Of a stretch of DNA of 64,000 nt, positions 2,676-60,880 are shown one piece after another; the first letter of the stretch is position 1; each line of letters begins with the position of its first letter. The notes below the pieces were generated by a model, which worked only from the letters and a program-made list of their open reading frames with translations, did not search any database and was not told where the DNA came from. The translations under genes were made by a program, and so were the position numbers. Origin of the DNA: Curtobacterium sp. Leaf261 (GTDB lineage: Bacteria; Actinomycetota; Actinomycetes; Actinomycetales; Microbacteriaceae); the NCBI RefSeq assembly GCF_001422205.1, contig NZ_LMMJ01000007.1, positions 124,870 to 188,869 of the forward strand, given 5' to 3'.

Positions 2676-2708
2676 GTTCACCTCCGGTCCACACAGCGTC
2701 CATGTCCA
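2676..2708 (+). promoter_or_regulatory. Candidate PHO box (PhoP binding repeats) upstream of ppk1
   Basis: Three consecutive 11-base units start at 2676, 2687 and 2698: GTTCACCTCCG, then GTCCACACAGC, then GTCCATGTCCA. The first fits the actinobacterial PHO-box unit GTTCACC well, the others loosely. It lies just after mshD and 39 bases before the chosen ppk1 start. Streptomyces ppk is known to be PhoP-controlled; application here is inference. Confidence 0.5.
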
Positions 2709-2746: not shown

Positions 2747-4912
2747 ATGGATGCCGAACCGCAGCTCGACGGGGAATCCGTCGCCTCCGACCTGGACGAC
2801 TTCGACGAGATCGTCGCGGTCGAGCACGAGTCGCTGCCCACCGATCGGTACTTCGACCGCGAGCTCAGCTGGCTCCGCTTCAACCAGCGGGTGCTCGAAC
2901 TCGGCGAGGACCGCACGGTGCCGCTGCTCGAGCGCGCGAACTTCCTGGCGATCTTCGCCACGAACCTCGACGAGTTCTTCATGGTCAGGGTGGCGGGACT
3001 GAAGCGTCGCATCGACACCGGGCTCGCCGTGCCGACCAACGTGGGCCGCGCACCGCTCGACGTCCTCTCCGACATCGCGCGGGAGGCCCATGCCCTCCAG
3101 GACCGACACGCCAAGGCGTTCGCGGAGGTCCTCAAGCCGGACCTCGACGAGGCGGGCATCCACGTGGAGCACTGGTCCGACCTCGAGGAGGCCGACCGCG
3201 TCCGCATGCGCGAGTACTTCACCGGGCAGATCTTCCCGGTGCTCATGCCGCTCGCCGTCGACCCGGCGCACCCCTTCCCGTACATCTCCGGGCTCTCGCT
3301 CAACCTGTCGATCCGAGTGCGCAACCCGAAGACCGCCCGGCAGGAGTTCGCGCGTCTCAAGGTGCCGCAGATGCTCCCCCGCTTCGTGCAGCTCCCCGAC
3401 GACGGCTCGGGGCGCCTCCGGTTCATCCCGCTCGAGGACCTCATCGCGAACCACCTCGGCGACCTGTTCCCGGGCATGGAGATCATCGAGCACCACGTGT
3501 TCCGGGTGACCCGCAACGAGGACGTCGAGATCGAGGAGGACGAGACCGAGAACCTCATCCAGGCCCTCGAGAAGGAGCTCCTGCGGCGCCGCTTCGGACC
3601 GCCGATCCGCCTCGAGATCACCGACGACATGGACGACGTCACACTCGACCTGCTCGTCCGCGAGCTCGACATCACCGAGAACGAGGTGTACCGGCTGCCG
3701 TCACCGCTCGACCTCGGCGGCCTGTTCGAGCTGTCGAAGATCTCGCGGCCGGACCTGCACTACCCGAAGCACGTGCCGACGACCGCGGTGCAGATGCAGC
3801 CGACGGAGCCGAACCTCAAGCCCGACCTGTTCCGCGCGATCTCGCGCGAGGACATCCTCGTGCACCACCCGTACGAGTCCTTCGCCACGAGCGTGCAGGC
3901 GTTCCTCGAGCAGGCGGCCGCCGACCCGCACGTCCTCGCCATCAAGCAGACGCTCTACCGCACCTCTGGCGACAGCCCCATCATCGAGGCGCTCATCGAC
4001 GCCGCGGAGGCCGGCAAGCAGGTCCTCGCCCTCGTCGAGATCAAGGCGCGCTTCGACGAGCAGAACAACATCACGTGGGCGCGGAAGCTCGAGAAGGCCG
4101 GCGTGCACGTGGTGTACGGGCTCGTCGGGCTGAAGACCCACAGCAAGCTCGTGCTCGTCATCCGCCAGGAGAAGAACGGGCTGCGGCACTACAGCCACAT
4201 CGGCACCGGCAACTACAACCCGAAGACCAGCCGCATCTACGAGGACCTCGGACTGTTCACCGCGGACGACATCGTCGGCAAGGACCTCACGCGCCTGTTC
4301 AACGAGCTGTCCGGGTACGCCATCGAGAAGAAGTTCCGCCGGCTCCTCGTCGCGCCCCTGCACCTCCGCAAGGGACTCCTCAAGCGGATCACCGCCGAGG
4401 CCGAGAACGCCAGGGCGGGCAAGCCCTCGGGGATCCGGATCAAGGTGAACTCGATCGTCGACGAGCAGATCATCGACGCGCTGTACCTCGCGAGCCAGGC
4501 CGGCGTGCCCATCGACATCTGGGTCAGGGGCATCTGCGCGCTCAAGCCCGGCATGGAGGGATACAGCGAGACCATCCGGGTCCGCTCGATCGTCGGCCGG
4601 TACCTGGAGCACTCGCGGGTGTTCTCGTTCCACAACGACGGCGACCCGACCACCTGGATCGGCAGCGCTGACATGATGCACCGGAACCTCGACCGCCGGG
4701 TGGAGGCACTCGTGCGCCTCACCTCGCCCCGGCACCTGGAAGAGGTCGACAACCTGTTCGCGCTGGCCATGGCCGAGACGACGAGTTCGTGGCACCTCGA
4801 GTCGGACGGCGAGTGGACGCGGCATTCGGTGGGTTCGGACGACGAGCCCCTCGAGGACATGCAGAATAGCCTCATGCGGCAGATCTCCTCCAGGAAGCGC
4901 TCGGCACGGTGA
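2747..4912 (+). CDS. ppk1: Polyphosphate kinase 1
   Basis: 721 residues, normal for PPK1, which reversibly transfers the gamma phosphate of ATP onto polyphosphate. The N and H domains begin with [18 protein letters not shown] and [16 protein letters not shown]. The catalytic phospholipase-D-like domains contain the autophosphorylated histidine in [10 protein letters not shown] (His465) and the second active-site histidine in [12 protein letters not shown] (His622). I chose the ATG at 2747 because it lies downstream of the putative PHO box and has AGGATGG a few bases upstream; an in-frame ATG at 2702 would add 15 residues but sits inside the box. The stop overlaps the next gene (GTGA), linking polyphosphate synthesis to a Nudix hydrolase. 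Confidence 0.95.
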
Positions 4913-5961: not shown

Positions 5962-6016
5962 GTTCACCTCCTGTTCACCAGGGGTCGCCGTGCCGGTCAC
6001 CTCGGCTCCTTACTGT
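5962..6016 (+). promoter_or_regulatory. PHO box and promoter of pstSCAB
   Basis: Four units in perfect 11-base register begin at 5962, 5973, 5984 and 5995: GTTCACCTCCT, GTTCACCAGGG, GTCGCCGTGCC and GGTCACCTCGG. Units 1, 2 and 4 match the direct-repeat PHO box of actinobacterial PhoP. A possible -10 hexamer TACTGT follows at 6011-6016, so the last repeat covers the -35 region, as in known PhoP-activated promoters. Predicts induction under phosphate limitation. Confidence 0.75.
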
Positions 6017-52787: not shown

Positions 52788-53867
52788 TCAGGACCGGGCG
52801 AGCGGCTCGGCCGCGACCGGCACGCCGACGAGCCGCACCGCGACCTCGTCGCCCGCGCTCAGCCGGTGCCCGACGTCGTGCTGCACCGCCACGATCGTGT
52901 CGTCGTCGAGGCGCACCGTGGTCCGGCGGACCGACCCCAGGAAGCTCGACGCGACGACGGTCCCCTGCAGGCCGCCGTCATCGCTGAACGCCATGTCCTC
53001 CGGACGGACGAACGCCACGACCGGTCCGCCCGCGAGCGTCCGGTCGAGGCACGCGAGCCGGAACCCGTAGGTGAACACGTCGCCGTCACGCAGGTCGCCG
53101 TTGAGCCGGTTCGAGTGCCCGACGAACCCGGCCGTGAACGGCGTCGACGGCGTCAGGTACAGCTCCTCGGGCGTCCCGATCTGCTCGATGCCACCCGCGT
53201 TCATCACGGCGACCCGGTCGGAGACGGCGAGTGCCTCCTCCTGGTCGTGCGTGACGAACACCGTCGTGATCCCGAGCTCGGTCTGGATGCGGCGGATCTC
53301 ATCGCGGAGCGTGACGCGCACCTTGGCGTCGAGCGCGGAGAGCGGCTCGTCGAGGAGCAGCACACGGGGGCGGGTGACGAGCGCCCGCGCGAGTGCCACG
53401 CGCTGCTGCTGCCCGCCCGAGAGCTGGTGCGGGTAGCGGTCGGCGAACTCCCCGAGGTGCACCATGTCGAGCGCCTCGACGACCCGCGTCTTCCGGTCGG
53501 CTGCGGGGACCCGCCGCATCTCGAGGCCGAAGGCGACGTTCTGGCGGACGGTCATGTGCGGGAACAGCGAGTACTGCTGGAACACCATCCCCATGTCACG
53601 CTTGTCGACCGCGACGGACGAGACGTCCTCGCCGTCGATGCGGATCGCGCCGCCGTCGATCGGTTCGAGGCCGGCGAGCGCGCGGAGTGCCGTCGTCTTG
53701 CCGCACCCGGACGGGCCGAGCAGCGACACGAACTCTCCGGGCTCGATGCGGAGCGACAGGCCGGTGAGCGCGCGGGAGCCACCGTAGGACTTGACGACGC
53801 CCTCGAGCTCGACGAGCGCACCGCCGGAGGCGAGCGAGGACGGGGCGTGTGGTGCGGTGATGGTCAT
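52788..53867 (-). CDS. ABC importer ATPase (Fe/polyamine/phosphonate class)
   Basis: 359 residues from the ATG at 53867, GGAAGGA upstream. Walker [50 protein letters not shown] and VTHDQEEALAVSDRV, then a C-terminal TOBE-type domain (GHSNRLNGDLRD, VAFVRPEDMAF). Such ATPases serve Fe3+, polyamine, thiosulfate and 2-aminoethylphosphonate importers; the phosphonate genes nearby favour the last. Confidence 0.85.
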   Translation of the reverse strand: MTITAPHAPSSLASGGALVELEGVVKSYGGSRALTGLSLRIEPGEFVSLLGPSGCGKTTALRALAGLEPIDGGAIRIDGEDVSSVAVDKRDMGMVFQQYSLFPHMTVRQNVAFGLEMRRVPAADRKTRVVEALDMVHLGEFADRYPHQLSGGQQQRVALARALVTRPRVLLLDEPLSALDAKVRVTLRDEIRRIQTELGITTVFVTHDQEEALAVSDRVAVMNAGGIEQIGTPEELYLTPSTPFTAGFVGHSNRLNGDLRDGDVFTYGFRLACLDRTLAGGPVVAFVRPEDMAFSDDGGLQGTVVASSFLGSVRRTTVRLDDDTIVAVQHDVGHRLSAGDEVAVRLVGVPVAAEPLARS

Positions 53868-54733
53868 GCTGGGTCCTTCCGGGAGGAGCTGGTGGCACCG
53901 ACGGCGCCGGGGCGTGCGGCGACGACGCGGGCTCGGCGGGAGCCCGGGCGTGCTCCACCCACCCGTCCGATGACGACGAGGAGCACGAACCCGAAGACGA
54001 GCGCCGCGACCGAGAAGATCGCCGCCACGTACGGATCGGTCTGCTGCACGAGCACGAGTGCGGTCTGGAACGTCGTCCGCGACAGGAAGGACGCGAGCGT
54101 GTACTCGCCGAGCACGACCGTCACGGTGAGGAAGCACGCCGAGAGGATGCCCCGGCGGAGGTTCGGCAGGAGCACCCGCCGGACGACGGAGCCCCACCCG
54201 GCGCCGAGCGACCTGGCCGCCTCGGTGAGGAGCACCATGTCGACGGCGGCGATGTTCGCGGCGATCGGACGGAACGCGAACGGCAGCGAGATGATCCCGA
54301 CGGCGAACGCCAGGGTCCACGCGTCACTGCCGAACAGCCGGGCGACGACCCCGTAGACCGGCACGAAACCGACGACGAGCACGACGGTCGGGATCGTGAT
54401 CGGCAGGATGCAGACGAACTCGACGACCCGGCGGAGACGCGGGTACCGGAGCGCCGTGAGGATCTGGGCCGGCAGCAGCACGAGCAGCACGATCGCGACG
54501 GTGATGGCCGCGATGACCAGCGAGTTCCGGAGACCCTCGAAGAGCGGTTCGTAGGTGGCCCGGTTGACCGGGTCCCCGAGCGCCGCGTAGTGCGTCAGCG
54601 AGAGACCGCCGGAGGTGCCGTTCCGGAAGGTGAACTGGACGAGCGCCAGGATCGGGACCGCGAACACGAGGCCGACGACGACGAGGATCACGGTGCTGGT
54701 GGTCCTCGAGGGTGCCGCGCCGAACCCGCTCAT
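53864..54733 (-). CDS. ABC importer permease (second subunit)
   Basis: 289 residues from the ATG at 54733. Six helices; coupling loop TEAARSLGAGWGSVVRRVLLPN. Overlaps both the ATPase start and the upstream permease stop by four bases. C-terminus is a basic, Ala/Arg-rich cytoplasmic tail. Confidence 0.87.
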   Translation of the reverse strand: MSGFGAAPSRTTSTVILVVVGLVFAVPILALVQFTFRNGTSGGLSLTHYAALGDPVNRATYEPLFEGLRNSLVIAAITVAIVLLVLLPAQILTALRYPRLRRVVEFVCILPITIPTVVLVVGFVPVYGVVARLFGSDAWTLAFAVGIISLPFAFRPIAANIAAVDMVLLTEAARSLGAGWGSVVRRVLLPNLRRGILSACFLTVTVVLGEYTLASFLSRTTFQTALVLVQQTDPYVAAIFSVAALVFGFVLLVVIGRVGGARPGSRRARVVAARPGAVGATSSSRKDPA

Positions 54734-55683
54734 CGCTGCCACCGCGATGCGCGTCGCTGCAGGGCCGAGTACGCGACCATGACGACCGCCATCACGACGA
54801 CCATGCCGAGTGCGAGGACCCCGGCGACGTTCTGCACGCCGACGACCGTCTCGCTCGTGAGCTGCTGTCGGATGGTCAGTGGGACGATGCCGCCCTGCGC
54901 GATGAGCGCCGCAGCCGTCGCGAAGGACGAGAACGCGTTCGCGAACAGCAGGAGGAGGGATCCCCAGAACGCCGGGGCGAGCACCGGGACGCCGACCCGC
55001 CGCCAGTAGGTCGTGCGCGAGGCGCCGAGCGTCGCGGCGGCCTCACCCCACTGCGGCTTCAGCCCCTCGACCGCCGGCATGAACGTCAGGACCATGAGCG
55101 GGACCTGGAAGTAGAGGTAGGGGATCACGAGGCCGGGGACCTGGTACAGGATCGGCCCGCCGCCGTTGATGTCCCAGCCGAACGTGTCGCGGAGCCAGAC
55201 GCTGACGAGCCCCTGGATGCCGATCGTCGCGATGAACGCGAACGCGAGCATCACCCCGCCGAACTGGGCGAGGACGCTCGACGCGGCGTCGATCATCGAA
55301 CGGACGAGGCCGTCGGGCCGGAGCGCGAGGAGCGCCACGCACACGACGGCACCGATCAGGGCACCGAGCACCGCCGAGACCGCCGACAGCCCGAACGACC
55401 CGGCGAACGCGCCGAGGATCTCCGGGTTGCCGAACGCGGCGAGGTTCGCGAGCGTCAGCGTCCCGGAGTCCGTGAAGAACCCGCTCGCGACGGCGAGCAC
55501 CGCCGGGATCGCCAGGAAGAGGAGGACGTAGACCGCGAAGGGGGTCAGACCGACCCACGCGATGCCGCGGCGCCGGGGACGTGCCCCGGCGCCGCGGCCC
55601 GTGGTGGTCTGGCCCTCCGCGGCGCGACGCTGCCGGACCACGCCCTTGCGGGGCGGTGCGACGGTCACGGGTGCGGATGCCAT
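54730..55683 (-). CDS. ABC importer permease (first subunit)
   Basis: 317 residues from the ATG at 55683. A basic N-terminal tail (RKGVVRQRRAAEGQTTTGRG) precedes WVGLTPFAVYVLLFLAIPAVL. Coupling loop GEAAATLGASRTTYWRRVGVPV. Seven bases after the binding-protein stop. Heterodimer with the next permease. Confidence 0.87.
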   Translation of the reverse strand: MASAPVTVAPPRKGVVRQRRAAEGQTTTGRGAGARPRRRGIAWVGLTPFAVYVLLFLAIPAVLAVASGFFTDSGTLTLANLAAFGNPEILGAFAGSFGLSAVSAVLGALIGAVVCVALLALRPDGLVRSMIDAASSVLAQFGGVMLAFAFIATIGIQGLVSVWLRDTFGWDINGGGPILYQVPGLVIPYLYFQVPLMVLTFMPAVEGLKPQWGEAAATLGASRTTYWRRVGVPVLAPAFWGSLLLLFANAFSSFATAAALIAQGGIVPLTIRQQLTSETVVGVQNVAGVLALGMVVVMAVVMVAYSALQRRASRWQR

Positions 55684-55690
55684 GGTGCGA

Positions 55691-56851
55691 TCAGCCGACC
55701 GTCGACGCCCACTTGCCCGACAGGACCGTGGCGGCGTCGGCCGCCTGCTCCGTCGAGAGCTGCACGAAGTCGCTCGGCGCCTTGCCGACCTTGGCGAGGA
55801 CGCTCTTGTCGACGGTCCCGGCCTTCTCCATCGCCGCGAGGGTCGACGGGTACGCACCGGATGCCAGGTAGAGGTTCTGCACGTCGGGCGTGTAGAGGTA
55901 CTCCTCCCACAGGCGGGCGGCCGCCGGGTGCGGCGCGTCCACGCTGATCGCCTGGTTGTAGTAGCTGCCGAGCGCGGTGCCCTTCGGGACGACCGTCTTC
56001 CAGTTCGCGTTGCCGGCCGAACCGCCCGCGGAGCCCCAGGCGAGGTTGTTGTAGGACCACTGCACGACGACGGGGGTCTCACCGGAGTTGACGGTCGCCT
56101 GCGTCGGCAGGACGTTCAGCATGTTGCCCGCGGACTTCAGCTTGCCGAAGTAGTCGACGCCGGGCTCGATGTCCTTCGCCGAACCGCCGTTCTCGAGGGC
56201 GGCGAGGTACACGGCACTCGCGGCCTCGTTCGCCTGTGTCGGGTCGCCCTTGATCGCGACCTTGCCCTTGTACTCGGAGCCGAGCAGGTCCTTGAGGCTC
56301 TTCGGCGCGGTCTTGATCACCGAGGAGTCGTAGCCGATCGACATGAGGCCGGAGTAGTCGTAGTACCACTTGCCGTCGGCGTCCTTGAAGTCCGTCGGGA
56401 TGTCGTCCCAGTTCGCGACCTTGTACGGCGCGACGAGGTCGAGGTTGTCGCTCAGCACGGCGGTGCCCATGTCGAAGACGTCGGGAGCGGTGTCCTGCCC
56501 CTTCTGCGACTTGGCGGCGGACACCTCGTCCGCGCTCGACCCGTTCGGGTTCGCGGAGTTGATCGTGATGTCCGGGTACTTCTTCTCGAAGCCGGCGATG
56601 ATCTTGCCGTAGTTGGCCCACGACGGCGGCAGCGTGATGACGTTCAACTGCCCCTCCTTGTTCGCGGCCTTCACGAGCGCGTCCATGCCACCGGCGGACT
56701 TCGCGCTGGTCGCGGTCCCCCAGTCGCCGGAGCCGGACGCGGAGTCGCTGGCGGAGGACGTGGCTGCGTTGCTCGTCGACGAGCAGCCGGCGAGGGCGGC
56801 GATCGCCGCGGCGGCCAGCGCGATGCCGGCGAGTGAGCGCTTGTGGAGCAC
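55691..56851 (-). CDS. Extracellular solute-binding lipoprotein, putative aminophosphonate receptor
   Basis: 386 residues from a GTG with GAAAGG upstream. Lipoprotein signal ending ALAGCSS. The mature protein resembles the iron/spermidine/AEP receptor class: LNVITLPPSWANYGKIIAGF, TAPDVFDMGTAVLS, YYDYSGLMSIGYDSSVIK, and SVDAPHPAAARLWEEYLYTPD. The ligand cannot be read directly; the adjacent oxidoreductase and phosphonatase-like genes suggest 2-aminoethylphosphonate or a relative. A weak PHO-like repeat lies 111 bases upstream. Confidence 0.82.
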   Translation of the reverse strand: MLHKRSLAGIALAAAAIAALAGCSSTSNAATSSASDSASGSGDWGTATSAKSAGGMDALVKAANKEGQLNVITLPPSWANYGKIIAGFEKKYPDITINSANPNGSSADEVSAAKSQKGQDTAPDVFDMGTAVLSDNLDLVAPYKVANWDDIPTDFKDADGKWYYDYSGLMSIGYDSSVIKTAPKSLKDLLGSEYKGKVAIKGDPTQANEAASAVYLAALENGGSAKDIEPGVDYFGKLKSAGNMLNVLPTQATVNSGETPVVVQWSYNNLAWGSAGGSAGNANWKTVVPKGTALGSYYNQAISVDAPHPAAARLWEEYLYTPDVQNLYLASGAYPSTLAAMEKAGTVDKSVLAKVGKAPSDFVQLSTEQAADAATVLSGKWASTVG

Positions 56852-56961: not shown

Positions 56962-56983
56962 CGATCGTGAATGGGAGGAGAAC
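56962..56983 (-). promoter_or_regulatory. Weak candidate PHO box upstream of the importer
   Basis: On the minus strand GTTCTCCTCCC is followed in 11-base register by ATTCACGATCG, two imperfect GTTCACC-type units, 111 bases upstream of the binding-protein start. It could also be chance. Confidence 0.3.
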
Positions 56984-57089: not shown

Positions 57090-57536
57090 ATGCGGTTCAC
57101 GACGACGGTCCTGCAGGCGCGGAAGACGGCGACCGGACTCCCGGTGCCGGAGTCCGTGCTCGACGAGCTCGGAGGCGGCCGCCGCCCGGCCGTCGTCGTC
57201 ACGCTCGACGGCGGCTACACCTACCGCTCGACCGTCGGCGCGATGAACGGGCAGTTCCTCGTCCCGCTCTCCGCCGAGCACCGGGCGGCATCCGGCGTGG
57301 CCGCGGGCGATGAGGTGGAGGTCACCCTCGAGGTCGACACACTCCCGCGCGAACTCGCGGTGCCGGACGACCTCGCGACGGCCCTCGACGCCGCCGGGGT
57401 CCGGACCGCGTTCGACACGATGTCCCTCTCGCGACGGCGTGCGCTCGTCGACCCGGTCGCCCAGGCGAAGGCACCGGAGACCCGCCAGCGCCGGATCGAC
57501 AAGGCCGTCGAGACCATGCGGGACGCGACCGCCTGA
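57090..57536 (+). CDS. DUF1905/YdeI-type protein
   Basis: 148 residues from the ATG at 57090, with GGAGG six bases upstream. Residues 1-85 form a DUF1905 beta-barrel (MRFTTTVLQARKTATGLPVP, TYRSTVGAMNGQFLVPLS); the C-terminal helical part (SRRRALVDPVAQAKAPETRQ, RRIDKAVETM) matches the YdeI/OmpD-associated family. Common in actinobacteria, function unknown. It is divergent from the importer; a role in phosphonate use is not implied by sequence. Confidence 0.85.
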   Translation: MRFTTTVLQARKTATGLPVPESVLDELGGGRRPAVVVTLDGGYTYRSTVGAMNGQFLVPLSAEHRAASGVAAGDEVEVTLEVDTLPRELAVPDDLATALDAAGVRTAFDTMSLSRRRALVDPVAQAKAPETRQRRIDKAVETMRDATA

Positions 57537-57586: not shown

Positions 57587-58768
57587 TCAGACCGCGACGG
57601 CCGCGTCCAACCCGGCCCAGGTCCGGGCCGCGAGCCCGTGCGAGATGGTCATCCCGACACCGCTCGTCACACTGACGACCGTCAGCCCCGCCTCCGGGTG
57701 CGCCACGAGGAACGGCTCGGGCGCCGAGGCGTACACGCCCATCCACCGCTCACGGACCCGGAACCCGTCCGACCGGAGCGACGGCACACCGAGCACCCGG
57801 GCGACCGCGGCGAGCAGCACGTCGGACACCGCCTCGTCGAGGAACGGGTCGAGGGTCAGGTCGTACCGATGGCTGTCCCCGACGATGAGCGAGCCGTCCG
57901 GACGCTGGGTCAGCATCACGTTCGCGCCGATGTCGACGAGCTCCGGCGCATGCTCGCGGACCTCGATCCCGAGTGCCTCGGCCGCAGTGGTCTCGGCGAA
58001 CGCCGGGTAGCGCAGCATGCTCGTCCCGGTGAGCACGGCCGGCGCGATCCGCAGCCCGGCCGGCGGCTCCACCAGCGCCATCTGCAGCCCACACCGCTGC
58101 ACGCCGTGCAGCGCCGCCAGGTCCGGGAACAGCTGGTCGACGTCGTGACCGACACAGACGATGGTCCGCTCCGCCCGGACCGGGCCACGAGACGTCCGGA
58201 CGATCCCGTCCTCCCACCCGAGGTACGCCGTGCCCCAGGCAAACCGCGCACCACGGTCGGCGAGCAGGGCCGCGAGTCCGGCCACGGCACCGCGGGGGTC
58301 CACCCGGACGTCGTCCCGGAGGAACGCGCCACCGACGATGCCGGGGTCGCCCGCTCCACCGATCCGCGCGACCGTCTCCGGTGCGGTCATCAGCGCGACC
58401 TGCCCCGGCTCGCGGCTCGCGGAGAGCTCCTCGAGCACGGCGAGCTCGGTGCCGCTCCTCGCCACGGCGACCGCCCCGGAAGCGACCGAGAAGAAGCCGC
58501 CGTCGCGGGCGTACCCGAGCCACCGGTCCCGCGCCACGAGTGCGAGGTCGAGCAGCTCGCCGGACTGCGCCGTGACGCACGCGTGTCCGAAGTTCCGGAT
58601 CGAGGCACCGGTCGCGCGGTGGTCCCGCTCGACCACGAGGACACTGAGGCCTCGGTCGAGTGCCTCGGACGCGTGTGCGAGGCCGATGACACCCGCGCCG
58701 ACGACGAGCACGTCGACGCCGTCCGGCAGGGTCGCGGTGGGCAGGGACGGGGAGCGCGTGTCGGTCAC
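57587..58768 (-). CDS. FAD-dependent oxidoreductase of the phosphonate-cluster (TIGR03364-like) family
   Basis: 393 residues from the GTG at 58768. Rossmann FAD loop VLVVGAGVIGLAHASEALDRG, then VVERDHRATGASIRNFGHAC; a D-amino-acid/glycine-oxidase-like fold with RERWMGVYASAP and a terminal VSVTSGVGMTISHGLAARTW. Proteins of this type occur beside AEP importers and phosphonatase-like hydrolases, and related glycine-oxidase-like enzymes oxidatively deaminate AEP or N-methyl-AEP to phosphonoacetaldehyde. Assignment here rests on that and on the divergent hydrolase. Confidence 0.8.
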   Translation of the reverse strand: MTDTRSPSLPTATLPDGVDVLVVGAGVIGLAHASEALDRGLSVLVVERDHRATGASIRNFGHACVTAQSGELLDLALVARDRWLGYARDGGFFSVASGAVAVARSGTELAVLEELSASREPGQVALMTAPETVARIGGAGDPGIVGGAFLRDDVRVDPRGAVAGLAALLADRGARFAWGTAYLGWEDGIVRTSRGPVRAERTIVCVGHDVDQLFPDLAALHGVQRCGLQMALVEPPAGLRIAPAVLTGTSMLRYPAFAETTAAEALGIEVREHAPELVDIGANVMLTQRPDGSLIVGDSHRYDLTLDPFLDEAVSDVLLAAVARVLGVPSLRSDGFRVRERWMGVYASAPEPFLVAHPEAGLTVVSVTSGVGMTISHGLAARTWAGLDAAVAV

Positions 58769-58818
58769 CGTCCGATCCTGTCGCGTCGCGCGGGCCGGAG
58801 GCACCCCGGCGTCCCGGG

Positions 58819-58851
58819 ATTCACCTGCGGTTCACCCGACGGTCGTACCGT
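58819..58851 (+). promoter_or_regulatory. PHO box in the divergent phosphonate promoter
   Basis: Three 11-base units begin at 58819, 58830 and 58841: ATTCACCTGCG, GTTCACCCGAC and GGTCGTACCGT, the same register as the pstS box. A possible -10 TACCGT at 58846-58851 would place the start at about 58858, the GTG of the hydrolase, giving a leaderless mRNA. The FAD gene begins 51 bases to the left. Confidence 0.68.
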
Positions 58852-58857
58852 GGCGGG

Positions 58858-59550
58858 GTGATCAACCTCGCGGTGTTCGACATGGCCGGTACGACGATCG
58901 ACGACGGCGGTGCGGTCTACCGCGCATTGCGGTCCGCAGTGGAGGAACGGGGCGCGTCCGTCGCGGACGCCGACCTGCAGACGTGGATGGGCACCGACAA
59001 GGTCGAGGCGATCACGCAGCTCCTGCGGCTCGGTGGCGTGGAGCCGGAGGGATCGGTCGTCTCCGAGGCGTTCACCCGCTTCCGCGAGATCCTCCGCGAC
59101 ACCTACCGCGAGGCTCCGCCGGTCGCGATCGACGGCGTGGTCGATGCGATCCGCATGCTCCGGGAACGCGGTGTCCGGGTCGCGTTGACGACCGGGTTCG
59201 ACGACGCCGTCGCCCTGCCGCTGCTCGATGCGCTCGGGTGGACGATCGGGCCGGACACCACCGACACCGTCGACGCCGTCGTGACCACGTCGGACGTCCC
59301 GGCCGGTCGTCCCGCGCCGTACATGATCCACCGAGCGATGGAGCGGACCGGTGTGGTCGACGTCCGCGAGGTGCTGGCCGCGGGTGACACGCTGGTCGAC
59401 ATCCGGGCAGCGAGGAACGCGGGTGTCGTCGCGGTCGGGGTCTGCACGGGTGCGCTCTCCCGCGAGGACCTCGAGACCGAGCCGCACGACCACGTGCTCG
59501 ACGGGGTCCGGGACGTACCGGCGCTCCTCGACACGATGGTCCCCGCCTGA
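58858..59550 (+). CDS. Phosphonatase-like HAD hydrolase (PhnX-related)
   Basis: 230 residues from a GTG. HAD fold with motif I VFDMAGTTIDD: nucleophile Asp8 and Ala10 where most HADs have a second Asp, as in phosphonoacetaldehyde hydrolase (DWAGTT). The cap has WMGTDKVEAI with Lys48 in the place of the PhnX Schiff-base lysine (Lys53). ALTTGFDDAV is motif II, RPAPYMIHRAM and VLAAGDTLVDIRAARNAG are motifs III and IV. It should split phosphonoacetaldehyde into acetaldehyde and phosphate. Confidence 0.85.
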   Translation: MINLAVFDMAGTTIDDGGAVYRALRSAVEERGASVADADLQTWMGTDKVEAITQLLRLGGVEPEGSVVSEAFTRFREILRDTYREAPPVAIDGVVDAIRMLRERGVRVALTTGFDDAVALPLLDALGWTIGPDTTDTVDAVVTTSDVPAGRPAPYMIHRAMERTGVVDVREVLAAGDTLVDIRAARNAGVVAVGVCTGALSREDLETEPHDHVLDGVRDVPALLDTMVPA

Positions 59551-59639: not shown

Positions 59640-59704
59640 TCGCACCACTCCCCGCGCATCACACCACTGTTGACCGTCGGTGTGATGCGCCGGGAATGGT
59701 GCGA
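59640..59704. repeat. Long imperfect hairpin with CGCACCAC motif, upstream of the AbiEi/nuclease-like gene
   Basis: TCGCACCACTCC (59640-59651) pairs with GGAATGGTGCGA (59693-59704) and GCGCATCACACC (59654-59665) with GGTGTGATGCGC (59679-59690), around a 13-base loop. Confidence 0.8.
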
Positions 59705-59798: not shown

Positions 59799-60746
59799 AT
59801 GGTCCACCCTCTGCCGATCCTCTCCGAACACGACGCCCGGTCGAACGACGTCAGCGTGTCGACGATGCATCGAGCGGCCGCGGCCGGGCAGCTGCACCGT
59901 GTCGCACCGGCCCGCTTCGTCACCGCGAGCAACTGGACCGCGGCCGGTCCACGCCAGCGTGCGGTCACGAACATCCACGCAGCACTCGACCGAGTCGACG
60001 CGGAGCTGGTCGTGTCGCACTGGTCGGCTGCGGCGATGCTCGGACTCCCGGCACTCCGGGGCTGGCCCGAGACCGTCGAGGTCTACGACTCTCGAGCCGC
60101 GAGGACCCGGCGCGTCGGCATGACCCTGCGACGACCGGGTGTCCCGCCGCGACGCGACCTACGGAGCATCGACGGCCTGATCGTCACGAGTCTCGCGCGC
60201 ACGAGCATCGACCTCGCGCTGACTGCCCCGTTCGCGGACGCGGTCGCTGTCCTCGATGCGGCACTCGCGGCGGGCCTCGATGCCGAAGCGCTCGTGCACG
60301 TCCTGTCCGAGCGTCCCGCGGCCCGGCGCCGACGCACCGCGCGCGATGCCGTCGACTTCGCAGATCCGTTGGCGGGCTCCGCCGCTGAGTCCTTCACCCG
60401 CGTGGGACTCGCGGAGATGGGGGCGCCCCGGCCGACACTGCAGCACGAGTTCACGACACGGAGCGGGACTCGAACAGTGGACTTCTGGTTCCCGGACCAG
60501 GGCGTCGCGCTCGAGTTCGACGGACGCGCGAAGTACACGCAGGAGCGGTACCTCCAGGGGCGCTCGCCCGTCGACGTGTTCGTGGCCGAGAAACGCCGAC
60601 ACGAGGACCTCATGGCCTGCTCGGGGCTCCGCGAACTCGTCCGGATCGAGTGGCGCGACGTCGACGCTCCGGCCCGCCTGGTCGAACGGCTCCGAGCTGC
60701 CGGTGTCCCATGCTCCGGCGCACCCGTCCTCTGGCACCGCGGATGA
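59799..60746 (+). CDS. AbiEi-like HTH protein with Vsr/DUF559-like nuclease domain
   Basis: 315 residues from the ATG at 59799, AAGG eight bases upstream. The N-terminal 90 residues resemble the AbiEi antitoxin winged-helix region (SVSTMHRAAAAGQLHRVAPA, RFVTASNWTAAG), then ELVVSHWSAAAMLGLPAL. The C-terminus has the PD-(D/E)xK-type Vsr-like motif VDFWFPDQGVALEFDGRAKY, with Asp, Glu and downstream VFVAEKRRHEDLMA. Common in Microbacteriaceae as an orphan. Toxin, antitoxin or DNA-processing role is unresolved. Flanked on both sides by CGCACCAC-rich repeats. Confidence 0.75.
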   Translation: MVHPLPILSEHDARSNDVSVSTMHRAAAAGQLHRVAPARFVTASNWTAAGPRQRAVTNIHAALDRVDAELVVSHWSAAAMLGLPALRGWPETVEVYDSRAARTRRVGMTLRRPGVPPRRDLRSIDGLIVTSLARTSIDLALTAPFADAVAVLDAALAAGLDAEALVHVLSERPAARRRRTARDAVDFADPLAGSAAESFTRVGLAEMGAPRPTLQHEFTTRSGTRTVDFWFPDQGVALEFDGRAKYTQERYLQGRSPVDVFVAEKRRHEDLMACSGLRELVRIEWRDVDAPARLVERLRAAGVPCSGAPVLWHRG

Positions 60747-60880
60747 CGCATCGCACCACGAACGACGCATCGCACCATTGCGGCGCGGCACCGGTTGCGA
60801 TGCATCGCACCACGAACGACGCACCGCACCACCGGAGACCAGTGGTGCGGTGCGTCAAGAGTGGTGCGGTGCGTCAAGAA
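60745..60880. repeat. Cluster of GACGCAYCGCACCAC repeats with a perfect hairpin
   Basis: Forward units at 60745, 60764, 60799 and 60818 are variants of GACGCATCGCACCAC; inverted units GTGGTGCGGTGCGTC begin at 60842 and 60861. The units at 60818-60832 and 60842-60856 are exactly complementary (15 bp) around CGGAGACCA. It begins inside the stop of the preceding gene. Confidence 0.85.

Follow-up and report, generated by a model that had tools for sequence, protein, structure and literature searches.

Phosphonate use is usually under Pho control, and in the available parts of two sources the Gram-negative examples include phosphonatase (PMC10574752, PMC11203657). The PhoB-controlled phnWX of Salmonella and phnX of Enterobacter aerogenes place phosphonate hydrolysis under the Pho response (PMC10574752, PMC11203657), much as we propose here for a locus of Curtobacterium sp. 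Leaf261. Those systems are Gram-negative, use the PhnW transaminase and carry a PhoB box of another sequence, whereas the Curtobacterium locus has a FAD oxidase, a GTTCACC box and no PhnW match over the cut-off in its own genome (best 31.5 bits). A likeness of another kind is found in the PbfD and PhnX clusters, where a TIGR03364 FAD enzyme lies beside a phosphonatase gene, often without phnW (PMC10590968). According to the portion of that paper available, PbfD1 of A. baumannii is a TIGR03364 member, PbfD enzymes convert N-methyl-2-aminoethylphosphonate (in one case also plain 2-aminoethylphosphonate) to phosphonoacetaldehyde, and this activity can substitute for PhnW. By predicted gene content the Curtobacterium locus is of this known type of oxidative aminophosphonate route, but its hydrolase belongs to TIGR03351. 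The paper itself concerns enzymes, and a word search of its available text returned no mention of PhoB, phosphate starvation, regulation or actinobacteria (PMC10590968).

For the actinobacteria, a review of phosphate use attributes degradation, in the part available, to C-P lyase genes while leaving room for other enzyme systems, and the word "phosphonatase" is absent from it by term search (PMC7866108). The operator described below resembles the PHO box of Streptomyces coelicolor PhoP, which has a GTTCACC core and an 11-nt repeat at pstS (PMC4415409, PMC7866108). It differs in consisting of two units, which lie 27 and 16 nt ahead of the -10, and in belonging to a phosphonatase-like gene that looks leaderless. 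Our searches of open-access literature found no paper on PHO boxes at TIGR03351 or TIGR03364 genes in Actinobacteria. In Mycobacterium smegmatis, PhnF is a repressor of the GntR type and phnDCE is controlled by RegX3. In phnDCE/PhnF a phn-named actinobacterial locus is under GntR control, which recalls a GntR-containing arrangement described below, but no such GntR gene stands between the two Curtobacterium genes. The phnDCE system behaves as a phosphate transporter (PMC7866108).

The window, by which we mean the whole 64-kb stretch of DNA analyzed, contains an intergenic region of 89 nt (58769-58857) between a FAD oxidoreductase gene on the minus strand and a HAD hydrolase gene on the plus strand. 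The features of this region and its flanking genes are as follows.

57587..58768, minus strand: FAD-dependent oxidoreductase of TIGR03364, PbfD/HpnW type; GTG start at 58768 read from sequence
58775..58780, minus strand: CAGGAT, 6 nt before the GTG of the FAD gene; read in sequence
58819..58829, plus strand: PHO direct-repeat unit 1, ATTCACC-TGCG, ATTCACCTGCG; read in sequence, matrix score
58830..58840, plus strand: PHO direct-repeat unit 2, GTTCACC-CGAC, GTTCACCCGAC; read in sequence, matrix score
58841..58851, plus strand: GGTCGTACCGT, formerly read as a third unit; 3/7 matches, not a PHO unit, overlaps the -10
58846..58851, plus strand: -10 element TACCGT, 6 nt before the GTG at 58858, implying a leaderless mRNA
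58858..59550, plus strand: phosphonatase-like HAD hydrolase (TIGR03351, PhnX-like), 230 aa, GTG start, Schiff-base Lys kept

An earlier note on this DNA had read three PHO units here. The letters and positions of the first two are present as it gave them and form a strong PHO box of 20.9 bits. The third, GGTCGTA, matches GTTCACC at 3 of 7 positions and its place is taken by the -10 TACCGT, so that the box is a two-unit one. The paired units, ATTCACC-4-GTTCACC, span 58819-58836 and have one mismatch in 14 to GTTCACCNNNNGTTCACC, which consists of two 7-nt GTTCACC-like units with a 4-nt gap. The same note had placed the box between divergent genes, and this placement stands; the orientation had gone unmentioned. 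The box lies on the plus strand and points toward the hydrolase. The strand facing the FAD gene scores 5.3 bits, and the FAD gene may or may not be co-controlled. On the FAD side, CAGGAT may be either the -10 of a second leaderless mRNA or a Shine-Dalgarno sequence (AGGA).

The matrix behind these scores was built from 29 pstS sites of other genomes, with the own genome excluded. pstS was detected at 57 places in 56 of the 60 family genomes; the best 30 of these places were taken as loci, and a pair with at most three mismatches occurs in all 30. The matrix sites were chosen by likeness to GTTCACC, which makes the score circular for pstS but not for the hydrolase. When the window was scanned on both strands, only pstS (25.6 bits) outscored the hydrolase box; the next scores were 13.8 bits upstream of ppk, 10.7 bits, and 9.3 bits upstream of a transporter, and the reversed 64-kb window had no site of at least 8 bits. 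Two of these sites are used below.

5962..6016, plus strand: pstS PHO box (reference), units at 5962, 5973 and 5995, -10 TACTGT at 6011-6016
2676..2693, plus strand: PHO-like site of 13.8 bits by matrix scan, upstream of ppk (2747-4912)

CAGGAT also occurs six bases before the ppk ATG at 2747, suggesting another leaderless gene. At one mismatch or fewer, GTTCACCNNNNGTTCACC is found at 6 places in the 3.93-Mb genome, the hydrolase box among them. Five of these precede pstS, a PHO4-family phosphate transporter, a metallophosphoesterase, the TIGR03351 hydrolase and an alpha/beta hydrolase without a clear phosphate role, and the sixth is intergenic beside a second PHO4-family transporter but faces a Na/H exchanger. 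At two mismatches or fewer there are 48 places, compared with 6 for a reversed-pattern control. Positions 58819-58840 are supported as a putative Pho-type operator before a phosphonate-degrading gene.

The box recurs in relatives. A hydrolase search of 398 family genomes gave matches in 54, of which 50 were taken as loci L047-L096 (L064 without upstream DNA), two (G020, G033) were covered by loci from the genus and two (G371, G204) were left out; in 66 genus genomes there were 12 matches above 200 bits, 7 of them above the family cut-off. The redundant L047, L048 and L051 were dropped from the upstream counts in the family, L011 also from the spacing and gap counts, and the start of L013 was extrapolated for upstream scoring. 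In the 150 nt upstream of the hydrolase, 29 of 58 loci reach at least 8 bits on the forward strand (0.40 expected from shuffles; reverse strand 7), counts that overstate independence since the loci are mutually related. Near-units lie 11 nt apart in 31 of 57 loci and 22 nt apart in 16, with at most 8 loci at any other distance from 7 to 40. With a gap of 4, 20 of the 57 loci reach at least 12 bits (0.10 expected), and the other gaps from 0 to 12 give at most 2; on the reverse strand, the same test gives 6 loci at gap 4 and at most 3 at the other gaps. A second type of hydrolase in the genus (L015-L020, 38-41% identical) has GTTCACC-TG(C/G)C-GGACACC about 100 nt upstream in 6 of 6 loci, and some of these have a nearby TGTCCGGACA palindrome, a possible second operator.

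The orientation of the Curtobacterium box raises the question of whether it serves the hydrolase only, with the FAD gene constitutive or otherwise controlled. PHO repeats are directional, and together with the 5.3 bits of the FAD-facing strand this counts for a box that acts on the hydrolase gene alone. A divergent FAD gene directly adjoins the hydrolase at 28 family loci; 24 of them show a box of 8 bits or more on one strand, and the remaining 4 have nothing at this level on either. In 6 of the 28, however, the box faces the FAD gene (L084, L086, L087, L089, L093 and L095, 13.9-19.7 bits on the reverse strand), so that some members of the family are likely to have the FAD gene under Pho control. 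In the protein-family scans the FAD frame was taken longer, from 58804, and the FAD query in some homology scans started at the second codon, with M given as its first residue. We regard a box restricted to the hydrolase as quite possible in Curtobacterium, without calling it probable.

The predicted enzymes point to the oxidative aminophosphonate route, with the FAD enzyme passing TIGR03364 (388.3 bits, cut-off 285.1) and the hydrolase passing TIGR03351 (263.2 bits, cut-off 218.9). A genuine box could still control a hydrolase that acts on a phosphonate other than phosphonoacetaldehyde, in which case the locus would not encode a 2-aminoethylphosphonate route. TIGR03351 is a separate "phosphonatase-like" family, and the hydrolase fails the PhnX equivalog TIGR01422 (120.9 bits, cut-off 220). 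His56 and Tyr128 of the Bacillus enzyme are not retained in the Curtobacterium hydrolase. The nucleophile Asp (Asp12) and the GRP and GDT motifs are retained, however, and the Schiff-base Lys (Lys53) is found in 51 of 51 aligned hydrolases, an alignment from which 11 of 62 loci were omitted as redundant, cut or of a more distant type. The neighboring gene also argues against another substrate, as PbfD1, a TIGR03364 member, yields phosphonoacetaldehyde from N-methyl-2-aminoethylphosphonate in the part of the source available (PMC10590968). We consider a different substrate unlikely. Downstream of the hydrolase, a strong inverted repeat (59640-59704, 26-nt arms, 92% complementary) shares TCGCACCA-type words with repeats at 60733-60878.

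A candidate regulator is encoded outside the window, 4.8-7.4 kb to the left of its start at C7:124870, in a cluster of kinase, regulator and PhoU genes.

G000:C7:119474-120094, outside the window: PhoU
G000:C7:117462-118130, outside the window, divergent from PhoU: RegX3-type response regulator

The best solved relative of the response regulator is RegX3 (326 bits), followed by MtrA (204). The histidine kinase, also divergent from PhoU, has PnpS and PhoR as its best models, both below their cut-offs; SenX3 is the partner of RegX3. Three units lie in the phoU promoter itself, forming pairs of 9.1 and 12.6 bits, and NANNNT follows the first of them at 38 nt. The motif is common to the pstS, phoU, PHO4-type transporter and phosphoesterase genes of the genome. 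This distribution bears on whether the repeat might be bound mainly by another OmpR-type regulator, MtrA or GlnR, with nitrogen or development rather than phosphate as the signal. An 11-nt period is also seen in the MtrA consensus, GTAACC-N5-GTAACC, and in the available part of one source MtrA is reported at phosphate genes and in competition at GlnR sites in Streptomyces (PMC12323332). The window also has a GlnR gene (1055-1765, Pfam GlnR_1st). Within the motif derived from pstS, however, the TT and A of GTTnACC vary least, the Streptomyces PhoP core is GTTCACC (PMC4415409, available part), and the motif marks pstS in 30 of 30 loci in addition to the other phosphate genes just named. Control mainly by MtrA or GlnR is therefore quite improbable in our view. 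A chance match in a GC-rich intergenic region is hardly credible, since even with 48 genome places at two mismatches or fewer, at least one of them inside coding sequence, the shuffle, reversed-sequence, gap and opposite-strand controls fail to reproduce the box, which recurs in relatives at the right spacing.

The geometry of the promoter is consistent with a Pho-type operator. Counting that of this genome, 29 of the 30 pstS promoters have a TANNNT at exactly 49 nt from the start of the box, and the units of the own pstS stand 49, 38 and 16 nt before its -10. For the hydrolase the corresponding distances to TACCGT are 27 and 16 nt, which puts its units in one 11-nt phase with those of pstS; the 16 nt from the start of unit 2 to the -10 equals the distance of the last unit in the own pstS promoter. 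The -10 of the hydrolase lies 6-7 nt from the start codon, there is no Shine-Dalgarno-like word, and the promoter is probably leaderless. In L012 and L014 the -10 has the same position as in the Curtobacterium hydrolase promoter. Counted from the start codon their units are at -61 and -50, counted from the -10 at 49 and 38, which reproduces the pstS layout. This in-phase pair is weak in L012 (9.2 bits), where the highest-scoring pair (21.0 bits, at -92) does not keep the phase. Several claims of the earlier note fit these results. The register said to be shared with pstS is borne out by the single 11-nt phase of both promoters to their -10, the short distance from the -10 to the start (6 nt between TACCGT and the GTG at 58858) recurs in relatives, and with it the proposed leaderless mRNA is supported and probably right. 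Its main proposal, Pho-type control of a phosphonate gene, is likewise supported by the score, the 11-nt spacing, the recurrence, the geometry and the nearby regulator genes.

Because the mRNA seems to be leaderless, the phase can be read from the start codon in other loci. Across 57 loci, units with at most one mismatch are found at -28 (4), -39 (8), -50 (4) and -61 (2), and 21 of 69 near-unit positions fall in the phase of the hydrolase box, about three times an even share, with 48 out of phase. Among the 22 loci with an adjacent divergent FAD gene and a box that does not face it, NANNNT starts exactly at -12 in 9 and at any other offset tested in at most 3. A Shine-Dalgarno-like word is found in 9 of the 22, one of which also has NANNNT, suggesting that the leaderless start is not universal. 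Leaderless genes are frequent in Actinobacteria, and this aspect is accordingly not new. In seven loci of the Frondihabitans genus there is no clear PHO box (forward -7.7 to 3.6 bits, reverse 3.0 to 9.3), and the -10 and start recur there, with NANNNT at -12 in five and at -13 in the other two. Strict TANNNT at the register is absent for the ppk, phosphoesterase, L005 and L006 sites, and at the PHO4-transporter site (L002) it lies at +39, off by one.

To place the locus in a wider set, we used 77 of 78 loci from a contig search among named records; the L149 row, without upstream DNA, is an artifact, the starts of L205 and L214 were extrapolated, and some loci are in both this set and the family set. 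A PHO box directly before the hydrolase is mostly absent from the wider set; a forward-strand score of at least 12 bits occurs in 4 of 77 loci. At 59 of the 77, a GntR-type gene separates the hydrolase from a divergent FAD gene 600-1300 nt away. The GntR gene was detected in all 59 by tblastn, and the GntR and UTRA domains were present in 10 of 10 sampled (Pfam). Within Microbacteriaceae such loci occur in Leucobacter and in one record named Curtobacterium, and outside it in Streptomyces, Kitasatospora, Tsukamurella, Arthrobacter, Sinomonas, Glutamicibacter, Brevibacterium, Rothia and others. In this build the PHO box lies one gene upstream, before the GntR gene and facing the GntR-hydrolase pair. 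Of the 59 loci, 44 reach the 12-bit level, against 0.24 expected, none on the opposite strand and no more than 8 at any other gap; at the 8-bit level the count rises to 56 (1.34 expected). The three Lentzea loci stay below 12 bits. Measured from the 44 box starts, TANNNT lies at 48-50 nt in 18 and at 59-61 nt in 9, with 48 the commonest value, near the pstS register. A Shine-Dalgarno-like word precedes the hydrolase in 61 of the 77 loci. One record named Sporosarcina (L138) has an actinobacterial-like hydrolase (66-67%) and FAD enzyme (57% identical), either by transfer or by contamination.

The boxes before the GntR-hydrolase pair in 44 of 59 loci make Pho control of the route look widespread in Actinobacteria. 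The best relatives of this GntR in the own genome are 27-33% identical (top hits 30 and 33%) and none is close, suggesting that the Curtobacterium build manages without it. On balance, we lean toward the view that Pho control of the oxidative aminophosphonate route is ancestral or has been repeatedly kept in Actinobacteria, in two builds. One would be a GntR-layered operon (Streptomyces, Tsukamurella, Arthrobacter, Leucobacter, Brevibacterium and others), and the other a stripped Curtobacterium type without GntR, in which the units are often phase-fixed (11 nt) to a leaderless start codon and the box slides by whole units or reverses between species.

An ABC transporter lies on the FAD side of the locus.

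56966..56983, minus strand: weaker PHO box (9.3 bits) oriented toward the transporter operon; as at pstS, NANNNT (here CACGAT) comes 49 nt after its start
55691..56851, minus strand: substrate-binding lipoprotein; the PhnS model matches far below its cut-off
54730..55623, minus strand: ABC transporter permease 1, start from homology
53864..54742, minus strand: ABC transporter permease 2
52788..53852, minus strand: ATPase of the ABC transporter, approximate start; scores 388 bits with the PhnT2 model (cut-off 457.7)

All transporter subunits score below the NCBIfam cut-offs of the PhnSTUV-type models, and we infer an aminophosphonate transporter from synteny. The hydrolase, FAD gene and transporter are syntenic in 7 of 9 relatives' loci (L216-L221 and L224), with the contig of L217 ending before the ATPase; a tenth stretch, a filler of ten bases, was left out. 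Of the other two, L222, from the Frondihabitans genus, lacks the FAD gene and has the hydrolase divergent from the transporter, and in L223 the set is absent or rearranged. A box faces the binding-protein gene in L216, L217, L218 and L220 as well as in Curtobacterium sp. Leaf261, and NANNNT is at +49 in all five, with identical letters in L216 and L217. In three of the seven syntenic relatives (L219, L221, L224) nothing of at least 9 bits is found in the gap before the binding-protein gene. The transporter of Curtobacterium-type loci is taken to be Pho-controlled, a prediction in which the +49 geometry weighs more than the 9.3-bit score. A small OmdA/DUF1905 gene (57195-57536) lies between the FAD gene and the transporter; in L216-L218 the gap is too short for it.

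We propose that under low phosphate a PhoR/SenX3-like kinase would phosphorylate the RegX3/PhoP-type regulator. Two regulator subunits would then bind head-to-tail on the 11-nt units at 58819-58840, taking the place of a -35 sequence, and bring RNA polymerase to the -10 (58846-58851). Transcription would start at or next to the GTG at 58858 and give a leaderless mRNA for the C-P hydrolase, and a second PHO-type promoter would switch on the ABC transporter. The transporter would import 2-aminoethylphosphonate or its N-methyl form, the FAD enzyme would oxidize the imported aminophosphonate to phosphonoacetaldehyde, and the hydrolase would free phosphate from it. Regulator binding, activation, the transcription start, the substrate and co-induction of the FAD gene are steps that we infer. 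As read from the DNA, the whole scheme of a phosphate-starvation operator, a leaderless hydrolase mRNA, a Pho-controlled transporter and an aminophosphonate route is very probable.

Of most interest are how broadly the arrangement extends across Actinobacteria and the leaderless-looking promoters, which are partly phase-locked. These promoters form a natural series for how far a Pho operator can shift along the helix. A PHO box at a widespread route other than C-P lyase offers a direct, testable reason why such actinobacteria may use natural aminophosphonates mainly under phosphate shortage, and a Pho-controlled route for breaking the C-P bond would give the cell an alternative source of phosphorus.
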